From NCBI RefSeq assembly GCF_900089955.1, contig NZ_FLQX01000104.1, forward strand, positions 1 to 40,377: a DNA stretch of 40,377 nucleotides, read 5' to 3'. The position numbers and the translations under genes are program-made. Under the pieces are notes generated by a model. It made no database searches. It worked only from the letters and a program-made list of their open reading frames with translations, and had not been told where the DNA came from. Origin of the DNA: Candidatus Accumulibacter aalborgensis (GTDB lineage Bacteria; Pseudomonadota; Gammaproteobacteria; Burkholderiales; Rhodocyclaceae). Of the stretch, positions 7,279 to 16,863 are shown piece after piece; the first letter of the stretch is position 1, and every line of letters begins with the position of its first letter.

Positions 7279-7532
7279 ATGCAGATCGGCGTTGCCTATT
7301 CCGAGCCAGGTCAGCAGGTCTGGGTCAATATCGAAGTTCCCGACGAATCGAGCGTTCGGGTGTCCTCAGGCAGTTTCCGCATATCGACCTCAAGGCGCAG
7401 AAGGTCGGCGTTTTCGGGCGCCTGGTCAAGCTCGATGCCGCGCTGAAGCCCGGCGACCGGATCGAGATCTATCGGGCCATCATTGCCGACCCGGAGACCG
7501 TTCCGCGGCGCGATCAGGGAGAAGATGACTAG
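7279..7532 (+). pseudogene. rnfH: rnfH-like ubiquitin-fold protein, frameshifted by short deletion
   Basis: The N-terminus ([26 protein letters not shown]) is in one frame and the C-terminus ([35 protein letters not shown], ending at the TAG at 7530-7532) in another. The span is 254 bases, not a multiple of three. Family members have about six more residues (an Ala-Ile-Glu-Arg-type segment) between SSV and SGVL. The sequence at the join, TCGAGCGTTC (7348-7357), would encode both Ser-Ser-Val and the Ile-Glu-Arg-Ser stretch in shifted frames. That is what deletion between two copies of this 10-mer would leave. It is the last gene of the rnf unit. Confidence 0.75.
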
Positions 7533-7562
7533 CCAGTGAATCCCTGGCATCGGCCAGGCTGC

Positions 7563-7568
7563 TAGAAT
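7563..7568 (+). promoter_or_regulatory. Possible -10 element upstream of the PIG-L gene
   Basis: TAGAAT lies 53 bases before the chosen ATG at 7622. The same hexamer occurs upstream of argD, the CDF gene and rlmD. No convincing -35 element was found, so this is a weak call based on recurrence. Confidence 0.3.
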
Positions 7569-7621
7569 CCGGAGAAATGCGTTCCCCGCGTCGCGAGCGG
7601 GTTCACCGGCCGAGGCAGTTC

Positions 7622-9031
7622 ATGAGTTCACGTAAACAACAATTACTGCGCCGTCATCGCCGGCAGAAGCGCCTCGTCCTGCTCGGCACCCTGCTGGTAC
7701 TCGCCCCGTTGGGCGTCTTCGTCGCCTGGTGGCTGGTGCCGGCCGTGCTGCTCCTGGGCTGGCTCGCTCATGAGGCCTGGTTTGCCGATCACCTGTTCTA
7801 TTCGCCACATGATGACTACCAGTACACCTTCCCGGCCGCTACGGCGAGGCAGTGCGTATCGCTGGTCGGCGGACGTCTGCAACTGAGCGCGCCACTCGCG
7901 GCCGGCGAGACGCTGATTCTCGAAGTCGAATTGCACAGCACCCGGCTGGGCTGGTTGTTCGACCCCCATGTCTGGCTCGGCGACGACCGACAGGATTTCG
8001 AACGAGGGGTGCGCGGCCGACGCTTCCTCAACCTTTCTGGACAGGCGGTGGCGGTCGGCATGGGCGAGTTGCCGATCGAAGGACGCTTTTGCCGTTTGTC
8101 GCTGACCGCGACGCTGTACGCGCTGCCCAACCCGGATTATTCCGAACGCCGGATCATGGTCCTCGCACCGCACGCCGACGATGCCGAGCTGGCGGCGTTC
8201 GGTCTGTACAGCCGGGCGCCCGAGGCGGTCATCGTGACGGTGACGCAGGGCGAAATCGAGGCCAGGAACTATCAGCGCCTGGGGCTCGACGGCGCGCAAG
8301 CGGCGCAGCTCAAGGGACGCCTGCGCGCCTGGGACAGTCTGGCCGTTCCGCTCTGGGGCGGCGTGCCGCAGAGCCGCTGTGTGCAGCTCGGATACTACTG
8401 CCTGCAACTGCCGGCGATGCTCGCCCAGCCCGACCTCCTCTTTGCCTCGCGGGAGTCGGCCGACAAGGACGTGCGCAGCGTGCGTCTACACAACCCACTG
8501 CGCCTGCCGGCAGACGCCGACGGGCTGCCCTGCGGAAGGAACCTGCTGGCCGATCTGGTCGCGCTGCTCGAACACTTCCGCCCCGAAGTGATCGTCACGC
8601 CACACCCGGAACTCGACCCGCACCCCGATCATTTCGCCACCTCGATGGCCGTCGATCAGGCGGTACAACGGTCGAGCTGGAAACCCGAAATCGCCCTGCT
8701 TTACGCCAACCACCTGTACGACAACGACCGCTGGCCGATGGGACCGGTCGGCGCCGGCGTCGCCCTGCCGCCGGCGCTGGCGCCCCTGCCGGCCGATGGT
8801 CTGTGGAGCCCGCAACTGAGCGCCCAAGTTCAGCTCGACAAGGCGATGGCGCTGGCCATGCAGCACGACCTGCAGGGGCGTCCGCTGCTCAAGCACCGCC
8901 TGCGCCGCAAGGTTCAGTACCTGCTTGCCGGCCGCCGCTGGCCGGCGACCGGCGAGAACGACTTCTTTCGCAAGGCGGTACGCCGTCATGAGCTGTTCTG
9001 GGTTCGCCACTTCGACCAGTTCGACCAGTGA
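7622..9031 (+). CDS. Membrane-anchored PIG-L/LmbE-type deacetylase
   Basis: A 469-residue protein. Two close hydrophobic segments at residues ~16-45 anchor it to the membrane. A beta-rich region of unknown role follows (to ~residue 175), then a PIG-L domain starting at RRIMVLAPHADDAELAAFG. The APHADDAE motif matches the PHPDDE zinc/catalytic motif of the family, and HPELDPHPDH supplies the later histidines. The family removes N-acetyl groups from sugars (GlcNAc-PI, mycothiol precursors, bacillithiol, antibiotics); the substrate here is unknown. The start at 7622 has GAGG six bases upstream; an earlier ATG (7577) has its Shine-Dalgarno too close. Its stop is 25 bases before the zinc-ribbon gene, suggesting co-transcription. 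Confidence 0.75.
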   Translation: MSSRKQQLLRRHRRQKRLVLLGTLLVLAPLGVFVAWWLVPAVLLLGWLAHEAWFADHLFYSPHDDYQYTFPAATARQCVSLVGGRLQLSAPLAAGETLILEVELHSTRLGWLFDPHVWLGDDRQDFERGVRGRRFLNLSGQAVAVGMGELPIEGRFCRLSLTATLYALPNPDYSERRIMVLAPHADDAELAAFGLYSRAPEAVIVTVTQGEIEARNYQRLGLDGAQAAQLKGRLRAWDSLAVPLWGGVPQSRCVQLGYYCLQLPAMLAQPDLLFASRESADKDVRSVRLHNPLRLPADADGLPCGRNLLADLVALLEHFRPEVIVTPHPELDPHPDHFATSMAVDQAVQRSSWKPEIALLYANHLYDNDRWPMGPVGAGVALPPALAPLPADGLWSPQLSAQVQLDKAMALAMQHDLQGRPLLKHRLRRKVQYLLAGRRWPATGENDFFRKAVRRHELFWVRHFDQFDQ

Positions 9032-9056: not shown

Positions 9057-9791
9057 ATGACGCAAGAAATTCCGCCCGCCCCGCCGACCCGGCCATGCCC
9101 CAGTTGTCAGGCGCCGATGGCAGTCCATCGCTTCGCGCGCCAGCTCAACGGCGAAGTCGCGCTCGACATCTGCTTTGCCTGTCAGGGAATCTGGTTCGAC
9201 GAATTCGAGAGCGCCCAACTGGCACCGGCCGGCGTCGTCGAACTCTTTCGTCTGCTGCACCAGCACCACGCCGACCAGCGCCAGCCCTGGCGCGACCCGC
9301 TGCACTGCCCACGCTGCCGCGAGCGCCTGCTGCATTGCCTCGACAGTACGCGCAGCGGTCGTTTCGCCTACAGCCGCTGCCCGCAACGCCACGGCCGCTA
9401 CAGCGCCTACGCCGCCTTCATGGTCGAAAAGGGTTTCGTTCGCCAGCTCAACGGAGCCGAAGTCGAGGCGCTGGCGCGCCAGGTGCAGACCGTCCGCTGC
9501 TCCGGCTGCGGCGCGCCGGTCGACATTCGCCGTGACCACGTATGCACGCATTGCCGCTCGCCGATCGTCATCCTCGATCCCGACGCCGTGCAGAACGCTC
9601 TCGACGACTTCGGCCGGAAAGCGAGCCGGCAGCAGAACCTCGACCCGCACGCCGTCGCCGACGCCTTGGTCGCCAACGAGCGCGCCAGGTCGCAGAGCAG
9701 CCGGCAAAAGCGCCCCGAGTTGCTGGAAAGCGGCATTTCCGACCTCGTCCTCGGCGGCATCGAGACGGTGTGGGATTTGTTGAGGCGCTAG
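9057..9791 (+). CDS. Zinc-ribbon (zf-TFIIB type) protein
   Basis: A 244-residue cytosolic protein with three zinc-ribbon-like cysteine groups. The first is CPSCQAPM...CFACQGIWFD, the classic zf-TFIIB pattern with its trailing Trp-Phe-Asp. The second is CPRCRERLLHC...CPQRHG, and the third CSGCGAP...CTHCRSP. After residue ~180 the sequence is charged and probably helical. Proteins of this type are common and mostly uncharacterised, so I assign only metal binding. It follows the deacetylase gene by 25 bases. I use the ATG at 9057; the frame is open upstream only within the preceding gene. Confidence 0.65.
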   Translation: MTQEIPPAPPTRPCPSCQAPMAVHRFARQLNGEVALDICFACQGIWFDEFESAQLAPAGVVELFRLLHQHHADQRQPWRDPLHCPRCRERLLHCLDSTRSGRFAYSRCPQRHGRYSAYAAFMVEKGFVRQLNGAEVEALARQVQTVRCSGCGAPVDIRRDHVCTHCRSPIVILDPDAVQNALDDFGRKASRQQNLDPHAVADALVANERARSQSSRQKRPELLESGISDLVLGGIETVWDLLRR

Positions 9792-9814
9792 CTTTGGGGG
9801 CGCTAACGACTCGC

Positions 9815-11137
9815 ATGCAGAAGAGCCTGCTCGATCGTGTCGAGACGCTTCGCACCGACGACAGTCTGTGGCAGGACTTCGCCAGTGCCTGGGCCGGGGA
9901 AGGCGGCAAAGCGTTTGCCGACCCGGAAGCACTGTGTGCCGATTGCCTGCAGCAGGATCCTCTGGACCTCCTGCAGCGGATACTGAACGTGGCGCCAAAG
10001 CTGGGCAACGTGGCCGCCGCGACGCCAGCAAGAACCAATCGCTTGCGTGAAGTGGCCATCGGACTCTGCCTGTTGGCCTGCGAGCGCTACATTCGCGATG
10101 AGTGCACGGCGATTGGCGCTGTTGCCGCGTCGGACGGGATGCTGATCGGCGCGAGTCATCACCTGGCGGCGGCGGTGATTGCCGCGGTCTGGTGCGAGAA
10201 GGGTGTCAAGCTTCGTTTTGATCCCCAGGCTCGCGAGGCGGCGGCGGTCAATGTTCTTCCGCAGCACGTTGCACCACTGGAGTATGGCTTCCAGGGAGAC
10301 AGGGACTGTGCTCGCGCCGAACTGCTGGCGGTGGTGAATGCAGCGATGGCCGACCTGGCGGTCTTTGACCGCCCGTTGCGCCTCGCGGAGATCCGGAAAC
10401 GCGGCCTGCCTTCCGACAGAGTCCTGAAACGTGCTCTTGATCAATACGAAGAAGACCAGGGAACCCGCCTGATGTTCGGTTTGCAGACTCGCGATCCTCA
10501 CCCCATGGATGACCCGGCGCTGCGCAGCGAGTTTGCGACGCAGTTCGGGGTGCCCACGTTCTTCTACGATGCGGCGACCTGCGGTCGCCTGCAGGATGCC
10601 GAAGCAGATGCATGGAAGGGCCTGCAGGCGGACCTCCTGCACTATCTGGAGAATCTCTTTCAATTGATCTATCCACTACAAGAGGCCAAGTCGATGCTTG
10701 CTCTGGAAGACATGCATTTTCAGGTAGCGTTATCGTTTGCCGGCGAGCACCGTCCGTATGTGCGGGAGGTCGCCTTGCTGCTGACACAGGAGTTGACCAA
10801 GGAAGCGGTGTTCTATGACTACCACTTCAAGTCGCAGACCGCTGTACCCGACGCGGATCTCGTCCTTCAGCGCATCTATCACGACCAATCGGATTTGGTC
10901 GTTGTCTTTCTGGGCGGCAACTATCAGGGAAAGGAATGGTGTGGACTGGAGTGGCGAGCGGTGCGCGACCTGATCAAGAAGCGCGACGGGAAACGAATCA
11001 TGTTCTTCCGCTTCGACGATAAGCCGGTGGACGGCGTCTTCTCTCTGGATCTCGCGATCGACTGCGGCGAACATTCTCCCGCCGAAGCGGCCAAGCTGAT
11101 CAGCGAACGCCTTCAGGTCACTCCGCGCAAGCCATAG
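9815..11137 (+). CDS. TIR-domain protein, putative effector
   Basis: A 440-residue protein. Residues ~300-437 form a TIR domain of the bacterial TIR_2 type: HFQVALSFAGEHRPYVREV at the start, VFYDYHFKS after the second strand, DLVVVFLGGNYQGKEW, and EWCGLEWRAVRDL with E379 in the position of the NADase glutamate. The first 300 residues are alpha-rich and match nothing I recognise. I infer that they sense or regulate. In bacterial defence, TIR domains usually deplete NAD or make cyclic signals. The gene precedes a MoxR ATPase and FGE-fold sensors, separated by 131 bp of REP-like repeats. The chosen ATG at 9815 has only a weak ribosome site (GGGGG about 14 bases upstream). Confidence 0.8.
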   Translation: MQKSLLDRVETLRTDDSLWQDFASAWAGEGGKAFADPEALCADCLQQDPLDLLQRILNVAPKLGNVAAATPARTNRLREVAIGLCLLACERYIRDECTAIGAVAASDGMLIGASHHLAAAVIAAVWCEKGVKLRFDPQAREAAAVNVLPQHVAPLEYGFQGDRDCARAELLAVVNAAMADLAVFDRPLRLAEIRKRGLPSDRVLKRALDQYEEDQGTRLMFGLQTRDPHPMDDPALRSEFATQFGVPTFFYDAATCGRLQDAEADAWKGLQADLLHYLENLFQLIYPLQEAKSMLALEDMHFQVALSFAGEHRPYVREVALLLTQELTKEAVFYDYHFKSQTAVPDADLVLQRIYHDQSDLVVVFLGGNYQGKEWCGLEWRAVRDLIKKRDGKRIMFFRFDDKPVDGVFSLDLAIDCGEHSPAEAAKLISERLQVTPRKP

Positions 11138-11268: not shown

Positions 11269-12288
11269 ATGACCTACGACGTCAAGCAACTTCTGGAACA
11301 CGTACAAGCCGACGCCATCGAAGCGCTCGACAACGGCGCCGTGCATCAATGGTCGCAGAACGAGATCGACGCGCTGCACCTGGCGCTGGCGTGCGAAAGA
11401 CCACTGCTGGTGCGTGGCGAACCGGGCACCGGCAAGACGCAACTGGCCTTGGCCGCGGCTGCAGCGCTCAAGTGGCATCTGCAGCGCGTCACCATCAGCC
11501 CGCGCTTCGAGGCGCAGGATTTGTTCCACAGCTTCGACGCCGTGCAGCGGCTGGCCGATGCGCAGGCGGCCGGTGCCGGCGGCGGTGGCGTCAAGCCCGA
11601 CAAGACCTACTGCCTGCCCGGCCCGTTCTGGCGGGCTTTCGACTGGGATGGCGCCGGGCGCTACGGACCCCACGCGGCCAGGCTCTCACCCGACGAAAAG
11701 CACGACGGGGCCGACTACGCCGGCCACGTCATCCTGATCGACGAGATCGACAAGGCCGACAGCGACCTGCCGAACAGCCTGCTCGAAGTCCTCGGCAGCC
11801 GCGAGTTCCCCAACCCCGTCACTCAGGAGGCGATTCGGCCGAAAGACGGGCTGCTGCCGCTGGTCGTGATCACCACCAATGAAGAGCGCGAGCTGCCGGC
11901 GGCTTTCCTGCGTCGCTGCGTGGTGTTGACGCTCGAACCCGATAAGTCCTACGTCGACTTTCTCGTCAAGCGCGGGCGGGCGCACTTCGGAACGGCAGCC
12001 GTGCCGGCGGATCGTCTGGAGGATGAGATCCTGAAGATCGCGGCCGAGCAACTCGATGGCGACCGCAACAACGCCAAGGCTGCTGGCGTGCCGCCCCCTG
12101 GCCTCGCCGAGTACATCGACCTGCTCACCGCGCTGCGGCGGCTGGCGCCTGGCGATCCGGAGAAGCAAAGAGACTGGCTCGGCCGGCTCGCTCGCTACGC
12201 TTTCCTGAAGAACGGCGTCGTCGAGGGTAACCCGAAGCTCTCGCAGAATCCGCCAACCGCCACCAAGCCGGATTCGTCGGCGGGATGA
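11269..12288 (+). CDS. MoxR-type AAA+ ATPase
   Basis: A 339-residue AAA+ ATPase of the MoxR/RavA/dynein-related kind. Walker A is GEPGTGKT (K56), Walker B is ILIDEID (D158, E159), followed by a sensor-1 region (VVITTNEERELPAAFLRRC) and the helical lid (AEYIDLLTALRRLAPGDP). MoxR ATPases are chaperone-like and usually work with a von Willebrand A partner. The next gene, overlapping by four bases (ATGA), encodes a vWA-like region fused to an FGE fold. This coupling suggests the ATPase remodels or arms that protein on binding of a ligand. The pairing recalls the computationally described MoxR-vWA ternary conflict systems. The ribosome site is weak (AGGCAG). Confidence 0.85.
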   Translation: MTYDVKQLLEHVQADAIEALDNGAVHQWSQNEIDALHLALACERPLLVRGEPGTGKTQLALAAAAALKWHLQRVTISPRFEAQDLFHSFDAVQRLADAQAAGAGGGGVKPDKTYCLPGPFWRAFDWDGAGRYGPHAARLSPDEKHDGADYAGHVILIDEIDKADSDLPNSLLEVLGSREFPNPVTQEAIRPKDGLLPLVVITTNEERELPAAFLRRCVVLTLEPDKSYVDFLVKRGRAHFGTAAVPADRLEDEILKIAAEQLDGDRNNAKAAGVPPPGLAEYIDLLTALRRLAPGDPEKQRDWLGRLARYAFLKNGVVEGNPKLSQNPPTATKPDSSAG

Positions 12289-15071
12289 AACGCACGCCGC
12301 TGCTCGCGCGCGCCGACCTGCTGCAGGCGCTGGAACTCGCCGGCGACGACGATCAGAGCGAACGTCGCTATGCCGGCCTGCTGGCCTTCGCCGAGCGGCA
12401 GTCGATGGCCGCTAGCGCGTCGGTAGTCGTCCAGCCCGAGGTCGACGGGCGTGCCTTCGTCGGTCCAGCGCCCGCCGCAACTTCCGAATCTGCCGCGGCC
12501 GAGCGACTGAAAGCGCCGCTCTTCGCCATCACCAACTGCCGCCGTCTCGATCTCCCCGCCGAGGCGGACGATGCCGTCAAACCGTCGCCGCTGACGAGCG
12601 AGCAATGCGCGCCGCGCCAGACGCAGGGCGACGCCGCCCCCTTCGTTCCGCTCGTCCGCCGCACGCGCCTGTGGCCGGCGCTCAAGCGTTCGGCGCTCGA
12701 ACTTCGCCACACCGGTCTCGACATGCGGCGCCTGTTGCGCGACCTGGCGCGGGCCCGACCCGTGCGGCGGCTGCCTCGCCACCGTCAGCCGATCTGGGGC
12801 GGCGAACTGGTCGTCGTCTGGGACCGTGCGCCGCATCTGCTACCCTACCAGGACGATTTTCAGGCCATCGTCGCCGACCTGCTGCAGCAGCGCGGTGCCG
12901 CCGGCTGCACGCTGTGGCTGGTCGACGGCAGCCCGCAGCAGGTCAGCCAGCGCTGGCCGGAAAAACCGGGCGCTGGCGCAGCGGCGGCGACTCGGTCCGA
13001 GGCGATTCCGCTCCCGGCGCCAGGAACCCGCGTGCTGATCCTGTCCGACGCCGGGGCGCTGAGCGGTTGGCCGGCGGCAGCCTGCGCCTGGGCCGAGTTG
13101 ACTCGCCAGCTCGCGCAGCACGGCGCGCAGCCGGTCGTCTGGGCGCCGCTGGCGCCGGCGCAGATCGAAGTCGAACTGGCGCGGCGGGCGCACGTCTTCT
13201 GCCTGCAGTCCGCTGGCGGACTACGCCGCCAGCGCGGTCGCATCACCGACGACGAGCAGCGGCGCGCCGAAACCGCGCGCCTGGCAGCGCTGCGCGAGCG
13301 GCTGCTGGCGCGCATGGCTTGCTGTGTTCGCGTCGAACCGGCGCTGCTGCGCGCGTTGCGCGGCATCACGCCCGCCACCGCCGTCGAGCCGGCGCTCGAA
13401 GCGCTGGTATGGATACATCAGCCGGTGGTCTACGACAGCCTCGTCTCGCGCGCCGTCGCCGCCGACCACGTTGCCCGATACCGCCAGGCATTTGGTGAGC
13501 TGACGGCCGACGAGCAACTCGCGGCGCTAGAACGGACGCTGCACCTTCATGGCTGGCGAGGACGGGCGACCGAAGCGGCCGAGCTGCTGATCTGGCAGGC
13601 GCACGCCAGCCCCGAGGCGCGCCAGGACTGTGACTGCGCCGCCAGGGTTGAAGAAGCGCGACGCTGGTTCGAGGCGTTCAAGGAGACGGCGACCCGGTCG
13701 TCCACCCCGGACCCGCAACTGCGCCACTACACGCTCGACCTCCTTGCTCGCAACGGCGCCGATCAGACCTGGGTCGAGGCCAACTCGGAGTGGTTGTCGC
13801 CGGTGTGGGTGGCAACCGGTGAAAAGTTGTCGCCGGCCGGGCTGCGGTCGGAAGACCTCGTGCGCGCGATCAGCGCCCGCAGCGAGCTGCCGGCAGTCGC
13901 CTGTCAACTGGGTGTACAGGCGGAAGGGCTGATGCTGTGGAGCGCCGAACGTCCGGCCGGACCCGCGCAGTCTCGGCTTGGCTCGCCGCTGCAGGTCAAG
14001 CGACTGCTGGTCAGCGAAGGCGAGGGTCTGCCGACGCGTTTGCTCGACCCGGCGCTCAGTCCGCAGGCGGTCGCCACGCTCGACCGCTTTTTTGGCCCGG
14101 CCGCCGGGGTAACCATCACCACCGGGCAGCACAGCTACCGCGTCAGCCGCATCGAGCGTCCCGAGTGGGCGCAGGAAATCGGCCGCGATGCCTTTGGGCT
14201 CTACGCCGACGTGCTGGTCCCGGTCCAGCAGAGCAAGTCGCCGCACGGCGCGCAGACGATCGTCCAGCGCCTGCGCTACATCGAAGCAGGCCACTTTCCG
14301 ATGGGTTCGCCGGCGTCCGAGCCCGAGCGCTATCCGGAGGAAGGCCCGCAGCACCCGGTGACGCTCACGCAGGGCTTCTGGCTTGCCGATACCGCGTGCA
14401 CGCAGGCGCTGTGGCAGGCAGTGATGGGCAACAACCCCAGCCATTTCACCGCCGAAAACAAGGGCGGCGCGCAGCATCCGGTCGAGCAGGTGAGCTGGGA
14501 TGACGTGCAGCGCTTCCTCCGCCGCATCGAAGCGCTGCTGCCGGGCTGCGCCGCCAGCCTGCCGAGCGAGGCCGAGTGGGAGTACGCGTGTCGCGCCGGT
14601 ACCACGACGCCGTTCAGCTTCGGCGAGAACATCACTCCCGAGCAGGTAAACTACGATGGCAATAGCCCTTACCACGGCGGCGAGAAGGGCGTGTATCGCC
14701 AGGCGACGGTCGCTGTCCGGAGCCTGCCGGCGAACGATTGGGGTTTGTACGAGATGCACGGCAATGTGTGGGAGTGGTGCGCCGATGGGCAACGCGAGTA
14801 TGCTGAGCGCGACGAGATCCACCCCAGGGGGCCGGAAGCGACTAGTGTGGCCGAGCGCGCGCTGCGCGGCGGGTCCTGGGGCAGCCTCGCCAGGCTCGCC
14901 CGCTCTGCGTACCGCAGCGCGCACGCGCCCGACCTCGCCGCCCTGCGCTTCGGTTTCCGCTTTGCCCTGAGGTCCACGAGCCCGGCGGGGACCACGGAGT
15001 GGCCACGGTGCCGCGGGACGCGGCACCGTGGCCACCCCCGGGACGGGGGCGGCAAGGAAAAGATCTCGTAG
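12285..15071 (+). CDS. vWA/SAV_2336-like protein with C-terminal FGE fold carrying a DGR variable region
   Basis: A 928-residue protein. Residues ~120-330 resemble the N-terminal region of SAV_2336-type proteins, a degenerate vWA-like fold: LVVVWDRAPHLLPYQDDF near residue 175, then VLILSDAGALSGWP and QPVVWAPL. Residues ~330-650 are helical and unassigned. Residues ~660-900 are an FGE-sulfatase/C-type-lectin fold (LRYIEAGHFPMGS, LPSEAEWEYACRAGTTTPFSFG, LYEMHGNVWEWCADG, ALRGGSWGSLARLARSAYRS, FGFRFALRS). The cysteines needed by true formylglycine-generating enzymes at the C-terminus are replaced (AYRSA, GFRFAL), so it is probably a binding domain. Residues 859-899 are the variable region. A 29-residue tail encoded by hairpin DNA follows, and the stop TAG is part of a REP head. 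Confidence 0.8.
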   Translation: MKRTPLLARADLLQALELAGDDDQSERRYAGLLAFAERQSMAASASVVVQPEVDGRAFVGPAPAATSESAAAERLKAPLFAITNCRRLDLPAEADDAVKPSPLTSEQCAPRQTQGDAAPFVPLVRRTRLWPALKRSALELRHTGLDMRRLLRDLARARPVRRLPRHRQPIWGGELVVVWDRAPHLLPYQDDFQAIVADLLQQRGAAGCTLWLVDGSPQQVSQRWPEKPGAGAAAATRSEAIPLPAPGTRVLILSDAGALSGWPAAACAWAELTRQLAQHGAQPVVWAPLAPAQIEVELARRAHVFCLQSAGGLRRQRGRITDDEQRRAETARLAALRERLLARMACCVRVEPALLRALRGITPATAVEPALEALVWIHQPVVYDSLVSRAVAADHVARYRQAFGELTADEQLAALERTLHLHGWRGRATEAAELLIWQAHASPEARQDCDCAARVEEARRWFEAFKETATRSSTPDPQLRHYTLDLLARNGADQTWVEANSEWLSPVWVATGEKLSPAGLRSEDLVRAISARSELPAVACQLGVQAEGLMLWSAERPAGPAQSRLGSPLQVKRLLVSEGEGLPTRLLDPALSPQAVATLDRFFGPAAGVTITTGQHSYRVSRIERPEWAQEIGRDAFGLYADVLVPVQQSKSPHGAQTIVQRLRYIEAGHFPMGSPASEPERYPEEGPQHPVTLTQGFWLADTACTQALWQAVMGNNPSHFTAENKGGAQHPVEQVSWDDVQRFLRRIEALLPGCAASLPSEAEWEYACRAGTTTPFSFGENITPEQVNYDGNSPYHGGEKGVYRQATVAVRSLPANDWGLYEMHGNVWEWCADGQREYAERDEIHPRGPEATSVAERALRGGSWGSLARLARSAYRSAHAPDLAALRFGFRFALRSTSPAGTTEWPRCRGTRHRGHPRDGGGKEKIS
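14859..14981 (+). other. DGR variable region VR1
   Basis: Forty-one codons that pair with 16487-16609 without gaps. The two copies differ at 18 bases: 16 at codon positions 1 or 2 and only 2 at position 3. Twelve of the 16 have A in one copy. Eleven codons change the residue, ten of them ending in C and one in G, as expected if the template carries AAC, ATC or ACG codons mutated at adenines. The last ~30 bases (GGTTT to CCACGAGC) are nearly invariant and would serve as the IMH-like priming end. No template repeat is present in the window. Confidence 0.8.
14999..15049 (+). repeat. Tandem GC-rich hairpins just downstream of VR1
   Basis: A perfect 17-bp inverted repeat (14999-15015 with 15019-15035) has a GGA loop. 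It is followed directly by a second perfect one, CCCCCG and CGGGGG, with the same GGA loop (ending at 15049). The first starts 17 bases after the end of VR1. In the Bordetella phage DGR a GC-rich hairpin just downstream of the variable region promotes retrohoming, so this is the expected place for such an element. A termination role is possible, but there is no T-run and the hairpins lie inside the reading frame. Confidence 0.65.
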
Positions 15072-15100
15072 GTTGGGGTGAGCCTGCGAACCCCAACACC
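15065..15100 (+). repeat. Left REP of RAYT unit
   Basis: A GTAG head (15068-15071) and a GTTGGGG/CCCCAAC stem. It is a perfect reverse complement of 15656-15691 over 36 bases. The TAG of its head is the stop codon of the large vWA-FGE gene. Confidence 0.75.
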
Positions 15101-15124
15101 CAAGCAATCAGCTACCATTTCGCG

Positions 15125-15649
15125 ATGCGCTATCGTCGGGCCAACGTCGCCGGGGCGACGTATTTTTTCACGGTCAACCTCGCCGAGCGGCAATCCAGCC
15201 TGCTCGTCGAGCATATCGACGCCTTGCGGGAAGCTCTGCGACGGGTCCGCCACGCCCATCCCTTCCGCATTGAGGCCATGGTCGTCCTGCCCAATCATCT
15301 GCACGCTCTGTGGACGCTGCCGGCTGACGACGCCGACTTTGCCACTCGCTGGATGCTCATCAAGGCAGGATTCGCCCGGCAAATTCGTCCGACCGAGAGC
15401 CGTTCGCCAAGCCGTGCGGCGAAGGGGGAACGTGGGATTTGGCAGCGCCGCTACTGGGAACATCTGATTCGTGACCAAGACGATCTCGCGCGCCATGTGG
15501 ATTACATCCATTTCAATCCCGTCAAGCATGGGCTCGCGATGCGCGCGGTGGAGTGGCCGTATTCGTCGATTCACCGATATATTCGGCTCGGATTGCTGAG
15601 TGCGGAGTGGGCGTCGGATGGGTCCGGGGAGGGGCGGTTCGCCGGGTGA
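15125..15649 (+). CDS. REP-associated tyrosine transposase (RAYT, Y1_Tnp/HUH family)
   Basis: A 174-residue protein of the TnpA-REP type. The start MRYRRANVAGATYFFTVNL is the usual first strand. LPNHLHALWTLP carries the HUH metal-binding pair. The C-terminal YWEHLIRDQDDLARHVDYIHFNPVKHGL contains the helix with the nucleophilic tyrosine and the family's N-P-V-K-H-G motif. Such enzymes cut and join single-stranded REP hairpins and can move them. The length is normal and no frameshift is seen, so it may be active. It is flanked by inverted REPs and lies between two FGE-fold genes in the same orientation. The ATG at 15125 has no strong ribosome site. Confidence 0.85.
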   Translation: MRYRRANVAGATYFFTVNLAERQSSLLVEHIDALREALRRVRHAHPFRIEAMVVLPNHLHALWTLPADDADFATRWMLIKAGFARQIRPTESRSPSRAAKGERGIWQRRYWEHLIRDQDDLARHVDYIHFNPVKHGLAMRAVEWPYSSIHRYIRLGLLSAEWASDGSGEGRFAG

Positions 15650-15655
15650 TGGCGA

Positions 15656-15691
15656 GGTGTTGGGGTTCGCAGGCTCACCCCAACCTACGAG
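15656..15691 (-). repeat. Right REP of RAYT unit
   Basis: Perfect reverse complement of 15065-15100, with the GTAG head on the minus strand. It begins six bases after the transposase stop. Confidence 0.75.
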
Positions 15692-15758
15692 GATTGGTGT
15701 CGGATAAGGGATAATGGATGCCGTGAACAGAGCCGAGTGCAAGCAAAGCAAAAAGTCG

Positions 15759-15810
15759 GGCCGAGCGCGCGCTGCGCGGCGGCTCCCCGGGCAGCCGCCT
15801 GGCTGCGCTG
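15759..15810 (+). repeat. Vestigial copy of the VR 5' end
   Basis: The first 24 bases (15759-15782) are identical to 14849-14872 at the entrance to VR1, after which similarity fades (TCC, then GGCAGCC shared). Read in the right frame it encodes AERALRGGSPGSRLAAL, a recognisable but corrupted version of AERALRGGSWGSLARLA. This frame is not that of the downstream FGE gene. It looks like the truncated end of another target copy. Confidence 0.6.
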
Positions 15811-15814
15811 GTCA

Positions 15815-16621
15815 ATGAACGGCCTCTTCAAGCCGCAAGAATGGCGCCGTCGTGGCCCCGACCGTTTCCCGCCGCGCTGGGCGAGCGCCTGGGGCGACGA
15901 TCGTTTCGGCCTGTGGGCCGATCTGGCAGTCGCCGGTGTGGTGCAGCGCCTGCGCTGGGTCGAGGCGGGCACTTTTTTGATGGGCGACGAGGATCTGCCG
16001 GAAAGTCAGGTGCTGACGACGATTGCCGCGGGTTTCTGGCTGGCCGACACGGCGTGCACGCAGGCGCTGTGGCTGGCGGTGATGGGCAGGAACCCGAGCC
16101 ATTTCAGTGAAACCAATGAAAGCGATCGGGGCAGTCCGCAGCACCCGGTCGAGCGTGTGAGCTGGAACGATGTGGTGCTGCCGCCGGACGGTTTCCTTGC
16201 CCGCCTGCAATCCTTCACCGACGGTGTGGCGCCCGAACTGCCGACCGAGGCCGAGTGGGAATGTGCGTGCCGCGCCGGGACGCGGACGGCTTACAGTTTC
16301 GGCGACGCGATCACGCCGGAACAGGCGAAGTACCGGCGGGACGACGGCAAGGGGATGACCGTAGCGGTGAAGAGCTTGCCGGCGAATCCCTGGGGGCTTT
16401 ATGAGATGCACGGCAATGTGTGGGAATGGTGTGCCAATGCCGACTACGATGAAGAGCGCATCACGCATGGGGGTGTGGCCGTGCGCGCGCTGCGCGGCGG
16501 GTCCTGGGGCAACGACGCCAGGATCGCCCGCTCGGCGTACCGCCACGCGACCTCGCCCGTCAACGCCTCCCTGTACATCGGTTTTCGCTTTGCCCTGAGG
16601 TCCACGAGCGCGTTGGGGTGA
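15815..16621 (+). CDS. Second FGE-sulfatase-fold protein with DGR variable region
   Basis: A 268-residue protein equivalent to the C-terminal third of the 928-residue neighbour: PRWASAWGDDRFGLWADL aligns with its PEWAQEIGRDAFGLYADV. The FGE/C-type-lectin fold follows: LRWVEAGTFLMGDE, FWLADTACTQALWLAVMGRNP, LPTEAEWECACRAGTRTAYSFG, LYEMHGNVWEWCANAD, and the variable tail at residues 225-265. Like the neighbour it lacks the catalytic cysteines, so I infer ligand binding. It has no vWA-like part. The start is uncertain: the ATG at 15815 keeps the homologous region, while a GTG at 15737 would add residues read out of frame through the vestigial VR. Its stop lies inside a REP-like hairpin. It could be a stand-alone sensor or a truncated duplicate. 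Confidence 0.7.
   Translation: MNGLFKPQEWRRRGPDRFPPRWASAWGDDRFGLWADLAVAGVVQRLRWVEAGTFLMGDEDLPESQVLTTIAAGFWLADTACTQALWLAVMGRNPSHFSETNESDRGSPQHPVERVSWNDVVLPPDGFLARLQSFTDGVAPELPTEAEWECACRAGTRTAYSFGDAITPEQAKYRRDDGKGMTVAVKSLPANPWGLYEMHGNVWEWCANADYDEERITHGGVAVRALRGGSWGNDARIARSAYRHATSPVNASLYIGFRFALRSTSALG
16487..16609 (+). other. DGR variable region VR2
   Basis: Aligns codon for codon with VR1 (14859-14981). The constant scaffold is ALRGGSWG, AR, ARSAYR and the final GFRFALRSTS. The variable codons give N, D, I, H, T, S, V, N, S, Y and I, where VR1 has S, L, L, S, H, A, D, L, A, R and F. Silent differences are only two in 41 codons, whereas the ten or so codons around LYEMHGNVWEWC just upstream already show about five. 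This fits homogenisation plus adenine mutagenesis rather than plain divergence. Confidence 0.8.
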
Positions 16622-16636
16622 GGAACGAACCCCAAC
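16612..16636 (+). repeat. Hairpin directly after VR2
   Basis: GTTGGGG (16612-16618) and CCCCAAC (16630-16636) form a 7-bp stem two bases after VR2, overlapping the stop codon at 16619-16621. It resembles the REP stem of the RAYT unit. It could be a DGR downstream hairpin, a REP relic, or both. Confidence 0.55.
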
Positions 16637-16655
16637 ATTTTCGGCGAGGGATTAC

Positions 16656-16680
16656 GTTGGGGTGCCTTCGTCACCCCAAC
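16656..16680 (+). terminator. Strong hairpin, terminator-like or REP-like
   Basis: A perfect 9-bp stem, GTTGGGGTG (16656-16664) and CACCCCAAC (16672-16680), with a 7-base loop and no T-run. It is the last element of the island before about 320 bases of sequence (16681-17004) in which I see no gene, only a possible -10 box for argD. Confidence 0.5.
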
Positions 16681-16863
16681 GACCCGCTTGCCAGGCCTGT
16701 GACCGCTTGTCGATTCCGCCCGACGCTCTGCGGACTGCGCCCCCGTTGTGCAGCGCCCTTGCCAGCCAGCCCGGTTCTTGAACGCCGCGCGGCGACCATG
16801 GCTCGGCGTCTGTCCAGACCTCAAAAAGCCTCGCCTTTCCTATACATCACAACTCTTTTCCCG

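Follow-up and report, generated by a model that had tools for sequence, protein, structure and literature searches.

The closest described counterparts of the locus treated here are diversity-generating retroelements (DGRs) of clade 5A, such as Thiohalocapsa PB-PSB1 DGR 8, whose type of target has been suggested, as a proposal only, to act as an antigen sensor (Dore et al. 2024, PMC10907252). The sections of that report drawn on here also name Accumulibacter among organisms with several related DGRs and describe how, in PB-PSB1, mobile elements caused the loss of the reverse transcriptase (RT) or the template. Links to DGRs have likewise been reported for ternary conflict systems (Kaur et al. 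2020, PMC7159879, in the part cited), and the BPP-1 element, as described in the portion of PMC3240598 used here, requires a hairpin with a conserved 4-nt loop downstream of its variable region (VR). The locus in question lies in the window, a stretch of 40,377 nt that constitutes contig C104 in the assembly (4.7 Mb, 181 contigs) of the wastewater bacterium Candidatus Accumulibacter aalborgensis. In the following, genomes, contigs, and extracted loci are labeled Gnnn, Cnnn, and Lnnn, respectively, with G000 denoting the genome of this organism itself.

Very probably, the window holds the remains of a DGR locus tied to a TIR/MoxR/FGE-sensor cluster, in which two FGE-domain genes are former targets that have lost their writing machinery. 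The first-pass annotation had proposed that both proteins are or were DGR targets; it is the past tense that holds, given the cassettes found in relatives and an 18-nt template stub in the window. The targets and their VRs are as follows.

12285 to 15071, plus strand: target 1, 928 amino acids, with a C-terminal FGE domain (PF03781, E = 4.9e-41, residues 666 to 894)
14859 to 14981, plus strand: VR1, within target 1; 19/26 template adenines changed versus 4/87 other sites, relative to the G312 template
14952 to 14981, plus strand: 3' constant end of VR1, target form of an IMH-like sequence, CTGAGGTCCAC, from sequence comparison with relatives
15815 to 16621, plus strand: target 2, 268 amino acids, with little beyond the FGE domain (PF03781, E = 2e-34, for the frame 15737 to 16621)
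16487 to 16609, plus strand: VR2, within target 2; 14/26 template adenines changed versus 7/87 other sites, relative to the G312 template
16580 to 16609, plus strand: 3' constant end of VR2, IMH-like, from sequence comparison

The variable regions and the templates of related loci

Both VRs are situated at the C-terminal end of the FGE fold and form a gap-free alignment of 123 nt that contains 18 differences. As had been noticed at the outset, 16 of these fall on codon positions 1 or 2, and only two, both silent, fall on position 3; hand counts on the alignment further confirmed that A is present in one copy at 12 of the 16 and that the 11 changed codons end in C (10 codons) or G (1 codon). 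The reverse pattern reported for the flanking DNA was also recovered, with 51, 47, and 92 differences at codon positions 1, 2, and 3 across 189 FGE codons, versus 9, 7, and 2 in the VRs (Fisher's test, P = 0.0023). At columns where the G312 template lacks an A, the VRs differ at just 3/96 sites (97% identity), compared to 190/567 (66% identity) in the flank (P = 7e-12). The bias toward positions 1 and 2, together with this near-identity outside the template-A columns, means that neither chance nor ordinary divergence accounts for the VRs, and the combination fits what two copies of a shared template would look like. The duplicated stretch is slightly longer than the VR itself, covering 146 nt (14845 to 14990 and 16473 to 16618). 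At its 3' end, the IMH-like stretch reads CTGAGGTCCAC in both window VRs and CTGAGCTCGA in the templates of relatives, a difference that we take to correspond to the initiation of mandatory homology (IMH) sequence of a VR and its template form (IMH*), with the role that these names presumably imply. At VR column 15 (window positions 14873 and 16501), both VRs carry a G where the stub and the G305, G312, and G018 templates carry a C.

A search with VR2 DNA, scored for two candidates per genome, gave matches in 26 of 297 genomes of the family (G000 included), the best of them within Candidatus Accumulibacter. Among the 28 genomes of the genus that were searched for target 1, near full-length orthologues with 67 to 76% identity were present in G305, G312, G018, G304, and G302, and a second set had 46 to 49% identity. 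In G312, an HRDC-type accessory sequence, an RT with a YMDD motif, and a full A-rich template are all located between two targets; relative to this template, 14/26 and 17/26 adenines are changed in the two VRs, and 0/87 other sites are changed in each. The best PDB match of the G312 RT was 8ub7 (E = 4.8e-39), which we take to be the DGR RT of BPP-1, followed by group II RTs (E = 2.9e-13). An accessory sequence, an RT, and a template are likewise present in G305, the relative closest to the window (76%), the VR1 of which, pieced together from two contigs, differs from the template at adenines only, including a 1-nt gap at a contig end. The G305 assembly breaks inside this VR (end of L162, start of L169), and target 1 is on a separate contig; VRs may be break points in assemblies. 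G186 has RT and template between its targets, with 14/21 and 16/21 adenines changed in the VRs versus 1/92 and 4/92 other sites; its HRDC accessory gene (L087, 7504 to 7974) is split by an in-frame stop, whereas the RT and the template appear undamaged. G312, G305 (for VR1), and G186 thus each combine A-specific VRs with an RT, an accessory sequence, and a template, and the location of the latter three between genes orthologous to the two targets argues for a DGR origin of the window VRs. G018, a complete genome, has an orthologous locus with two VRs and, between them, an RT fragment and a damaged template.

Since the window has lost its own template, adenine specificity of its VRs was assessed by proxy, with the templates of relatives. 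Against the G312 template, the enrichment of changes at adenines was significant for both VR1 (P = 2.6e-12) and VR2 (P = 1.7e-6). Against that of G305, VR1 differs at 16/23 adenines and 6/90 other sites (P = 1.1e-9) and VR2 at 11/23 and 6/90 (P = 1.4e-5); for the damaged G018 template, the corresponding counts are 14/20 and 4/75 for VR1 and 10/20 and 4/75 for VR2. The differences between VR1 and VR2 themselves coincide with G312-template adenines in 15 of 18 cases (P = 2.5e-9) and with G305-template adenines in 12 of 18 (P = 2.7e-6). The few changes at sites other than adenines are what would be expected had copying ceased some time ago.

Probable remains of the cassette in the window

Alignment with the G305 locus places the borders of the missing DNA, and what remains between the two targets, as listed here.

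15062 to 15066, no strand: left border of the lost segment (14984 to 15061 correspond to L169 139 to 219, and 15067 to 15690 correspond to L169 1823 to 2446)
15065 to 15691, plus strand: transposase-like element (Y1_Tnp, E = 7e-4, below the cutoff), flanked by 36-nt perfect inverted repeats
15701 to 15768, plus strand: remnant of the DNA upstream of the template (15701 to 15786 match L169 2680 to 2765 with 84.9% identity; 15723 to 15786 match G018 with 85.9%)
15769 to 15786, plus strand: template stub, the first 18 nt of the template, 17/18 nt being equal to the G305 template and likewise to that of G312

The segment missing at the left border (L169 220 to 1822, about 1.6 kb) contains the accessory (HRDC-type) and RT genes of G305. 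Right next to this border is the transposase-like (RAYT-like) element; an 85% identical copy is located between RT and template in G305, where further copies of the element's repeat lie near the template-side copy. The stub, in turn, ends at a deletion junction on a 5-nt repeat, GCTCC (15782 to 15786), that in G305 is present at both ends of the segment missing here; about 253 nt are absent from the window, and the base after the stub is already the continuation of the target 2 leader. With the accessory/RT segment missing and the template cut to 18 nt, both writer and template are gone.

The first-pass annotation had called for a genome-wide search for a template and an RT, the absence of which it named among its conditions for refutation. 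These conditions apply only in part: the assembly yielded neither a matching template nor a cognate RT, but the orthologous loci of relatives do carry both. Queried with VR2 or with an A-rich template that we inferred (E ≤ 10), the assembly returned, beyond the two VRs and the template of a DGR on contig C125, only short matches with E ≥ 0.14; for the inferred template, only VR1, VR2, and the C125 template scored better than E = 0.1. The VR2 query also gave one 48-nt match within a C125 target. No RT close to that of G186 was found in the genome, the top match being the C125 RT (33%), and a lenient tblastn search for an RT remnant between the two targets yielded chance-level matches only. Matches to the RT family were present at four places in the genome (C150, C125, C168, and C134), and that on C150 is a group II intron RT (TIGR04416, above the cutoff). 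In the window itself, neither an RT nor an A-rich template accompanies the targets, only the 18-nt stub.

The C125 DGR (L002 1288 to 2562; L011) has its asparagine-rich template within the RT reading frame, at the 3' end, and three FGE genes accompany the RT. Adenine changes relative to this template number 18/32, 19/32, and 21/32 in the VRs of these genes, versus 0/83, 3/83, and 0/83 changes at other sites. One of these FGE genes contains an in-frame TAG, and, judged by eye, some starts at this DGR resemble signal peptides. As a writer of the window VRs, this DGR was rejected, its template differing from them at 56/117 and 48/117 sites, including 27 and 26 that are not adenines.

We therefore favor the following course of events, the losses being visible in the alignments and their order being chosen as the most economical one from sequence comparison. 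The ancestral locus would have encoded an RT between the FGE genes, and this RT would have copied an A-rich template into the 3' end of each, altering bases at template adenines; intact relatives support such rewriting of both targets, with the copying step itself deduced from the DGR mechanism. The transposase-like element would have inserted probably before the window and G305 lineages split, because G305 shares it in its place between RT and template. The window lineage would then have lost the accessory and RT genes, and the template would have been cut to 18 nt at the 5-nt repeat. Most likely, both genes are now fixed sensors with the binding surfaces that were written last.

Hairpins and recurrent loss among relatives

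Two features follow directly on the VRs of the window.

14999 to 15035, plus strand: hairpin after VR1, with a 17-bp perfect stem and a GGA loop; the sole GGA-loop hairpin with a stem of at least 7 bp in the window
16611 to 16681, no strand: REP-like palindromes immediately following VR2, at the place occupied by GGA-loop hairpins in relatives; homology to G018 ends at 16612

We scanned the 90-nt flanks of 23 VRs from 13 loci, several of which are orthologous and hence not independent, for hairpins with a perfect stem of at least 5 bp. A GGA-loop hairpin was found in 18 of the 23 VR flanks, versus 0 of 8 template flanks and 0.7% of base-shuffled VR flanks, and, by hand count, 42 of the 52 hairpins in VR flanks have GGA as their loop. 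Arrays contain one to four hairpins, the stems differing and the GGA loop remaining constant (L083, L086, L087, L089, L161, L163, and L165 to L169). Of the other five flanks, three have hairpins with different loops (G298 VR1, a VR at a second G018 locus, and G273 VR2); none was found in the 90-nt flanks of window VR2 and G305 VR2, as opposed to the one in the VR1 flank of the window. Considering all hairpins with a three-base loop and a stem of at least 7 bp, the loop is GGA in 2 of 18 in the loci extracted from G000 (101.6 kb), one of the two being the window VR1 hairpin, and in 39 of 94 in the loci of relatives, which were chosen around targets and in which the hairpin positions were not each checked. 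The second G018 locus (L084, 9400 to 9500) has two hairpins, with loops TAC and TCC. The stem of the latter is palindromic and its loop is GGA in reverse complement, as would be seen in an inverted GGA hairpin. In G305, VR2, which lacks hairpins, has 14 non-adenine mismatches to the template, whereas VR1, which has them, has none. Though the cases are very few, this suggests that rewriting of a target ends once its hairpins are lost.

Loss of the cassette was followed on a tree of target 1, VR excluded, for 15 loci, with intact and lost states assigned by hand from the cassette comparisons; the program warned of long branches, above all that of G261. G273, whose best open reading frame misses the N terminus, was kept outside the tree and retains only a fragment of the accessory gene. 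A full-length YMDD RT and a template are present in 6 of the 15 loci, and 9 are damaged, eight by deletion or fragmentation of the RT and one, G230, by our scoring of its RT motif as defective. That RT (L093, about 7530 to 8519, minus strand) reads YMDH where relatives have YMDD, and its template is adenine poor; an RT mutant with YMDD changed to SMAA is in use in the part of the work of Guo et al. consulted. The tree requires at least six changes, forced by well-supported branches, and by hand, with regain excluded, seven separate losses were counted on it, or six without G230. As to assembly state, G304, G302, G298, and G312 are fragmented, and G018 and G125 are single contigs.

The fate of the targets after loss can be followed in G304 and G302, both without a cassette after a shared loss. 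Their VR2 copies differ by 3, 0, and 6 changes at codon positions 1, 2, and 3, compared to 67 at positions 1 and 2 and 10 at position 3 in four VR comparisons from the pairs G312/G018 and G186/G125 (P = 0.001), in each of which one partner has RT and template. The comparison of VR2 between window and G305 (13, 12, and 6 differences by codon position), in which neither copy is near a template, was kept outside this pooled test. In the FGE parts without the VR, the ratio of nonsynonymous to synonymous substitution rates (dN/dS) between the window and five relatives is 0.17 to 0.30, and both targets combine open frames with low dN/dS.

On these grounds, we tentatively propose, as something that could go either way, that DGR-diversified Accumulibacter sensors are repeatedly frozen under purifying selection and that targets are marked by arrays of GGA hairpins, loss of which may switch off a single target. 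If true, a randomly generated binding surface would become a fixed, innate-type receptor once the machinery is deleted or inactivated, and hairpin loss would serve as an off switch for individual targets, as suggested for VR2 in both G305 and the window.

Competing explanations, the gene cluster, and known systems

Three other explanations were weighed against loss of the machinery from a former DGR locus. That a DGR located elsewhere in the genome continues to rewrite the VRs in trans is improbable. The genome does hold another DGR with A-specific VRs, that on C125, and trans activity is reported for PB-PSB1 in the sections of PMC10907252 used here, but the C125 template shows the 27 and 26 non-adenine differences given above, neither a further template with an E value better than 0.1 nor an RT close to that of G186 was found in the assembly, and VR2 lacks a downstream GGA hairpin. 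Hardly better are the chances that the organism has a local RT-template cassette and that the assembler dropped it owing to the repetitive nature of VRs and template. The G305 assembly does break within VR1, and the same sections describe co-existing structural variants with and without RT in PB-PSB1; yet the window is continuous, and the borders of its two missing segments, one at the transposase-like element and one on a 5-nt repeat within the template, do not resemble VR-template crossovers. The last explanation dispenses with a DGR altogether and attributes the pattern to two FGE paralogues under positive selection and undergoing gene conversion. FGE domains can duplicate, and the common nontemplate base at column 15 hints at some exchange, but we consider the probability of this account next to negligible. 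Selection gives no reason to expect 15 of 18 differences at adenines of a separate repeat from another species, and the account is contradicted by the cassette of RT, accessory sequence, and template that lies between the orthologous genes.

Several observations weigh against the former-DGR reading or parts of it. Although RT and template persist in G305, VR2 of that locus shows 14/90 non-adenine mismatches to the template. In the window, 4/87 (VR1) and 7/87 (VR2) non-adenine sites differ from the G312 template, so that a template identical to any of the known ones was not the recent source of either VR; the shared G at column 15 points to a late change in the template or to exchange between the two VRs. 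VR1 is strongly different between G304 and G302, meaning that not all VRs appear frozen after loss, and the dN/dS values are averages that include the time before loss. Finally, with the assembly in 181 contigs, an RT or template may sit unplaced.

Upstream of the targets and on the same strand are two further genes.

9542 to 11137, plus strand: TIR-domain protein, 531 amino acids, putative effector of the cluster (Pfam TIR_2, E = 2.8e-9, residues 395 to 509)
11269 to 12288, plus strand: MoxR-type AAA ATPase (Pfam AAA_5, E = 4.5e-14; bpMoxR below the cutoff)

The MoxR-type gene overlaps the target 1 gene by 4 nt, and G018 has related DNA in the TIR gene region as well (67% over window positions 10042 to 10674). 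No domain was recognized in the long N-terminal extension of target 1, for which PF03781 was the only Pfam match at E ≤ 0.001; a SAV_2336/VMAP-type domain, considered for this N terminus, was unsupported by Pfam and NCBIfam scans. Target 2 probably starts at ATG 15815 rather than at the listed GTG 15737, judging from its closest orthologues, the alignments of which start there. Its best PDB relative is 2y3c (Treponema denticola variable protein 1; E = 3e-19), with an alignment that extends through the VR; an AlphaFold model of this protein, built from 14 sequences, was too poor to be used (mean pLDDT score 58, mostly <50 in the VR). PADLOC and NCBIfam scans of the window proteins gave no defense-system name, weak IetA and GajB matches to the MoxR-type ATPase and weak matches to FGE-type models, like the other models, being below the cutoff. 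Among nine window proteins scanned with Pfam, a MoxR-type AAA domain and a TIR domain were present, and vWA and VMAP were absent.

The locus shows, complete with deletion borders, how a DGR-diversified putative immune sensor can cease to diversify and nevertheless be kept. Related loci in intact, damaged, and lost states offer material for examining whether such sensors undergo hypermutation only transiently, and GGA-loop hairpins may serve as a template-independent sequence marker of DGR targets in this group.

In gene content, the window resembles the clade 5A DGRs, which, in the parts of PMC10907252 cited, likewise have MoxR directly upstream, TIR nearby, and a long target with an unrecognized N-terminal extension next to a short second target consisting only of a C-type lectin (CLec)/FGE domain. 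It differs from them in lacking RT and template, and the likeness is one of gene content. With the ternary conflict systems of the MoxR-vWA-VMAP type, as presented in the part of Kaur et al. (2020, PMC7159879) consulted, it has in common a MoxR ATPase, an FGE-type domain, and a TIR effector, but not vWA or VMAP among the nine proteins scanned. The GC-rich hairpin 3' of the VR, with free stem sequence and conserved loop, recalls that of BPP-1 as characterized in the cited portion of PMC3240598; here, however, arrays of one to four hairpins have a 3-nt GGA loop, whereas BPP-1 has one hairpin with a 4-nt GRNA loop.

A parallel to the loss itself is provided by the leftover targets of T. denticola, whose VRs differ from the templates of other isolates mostly at adenines; in the sections of PMC4891356 on which we rely, no RT or template was identified in the isolates with loss, and intact isolates have an HRDC accessory gene. 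Degraded DGR loci are thus already known. Compared with T. denticola, what the present locus adds is that the deletion borders, template stub, and transposase-like element are visible and that loss recurs across species of the genus; the recurrent loss and the hairpin arrays are the interesting parts.

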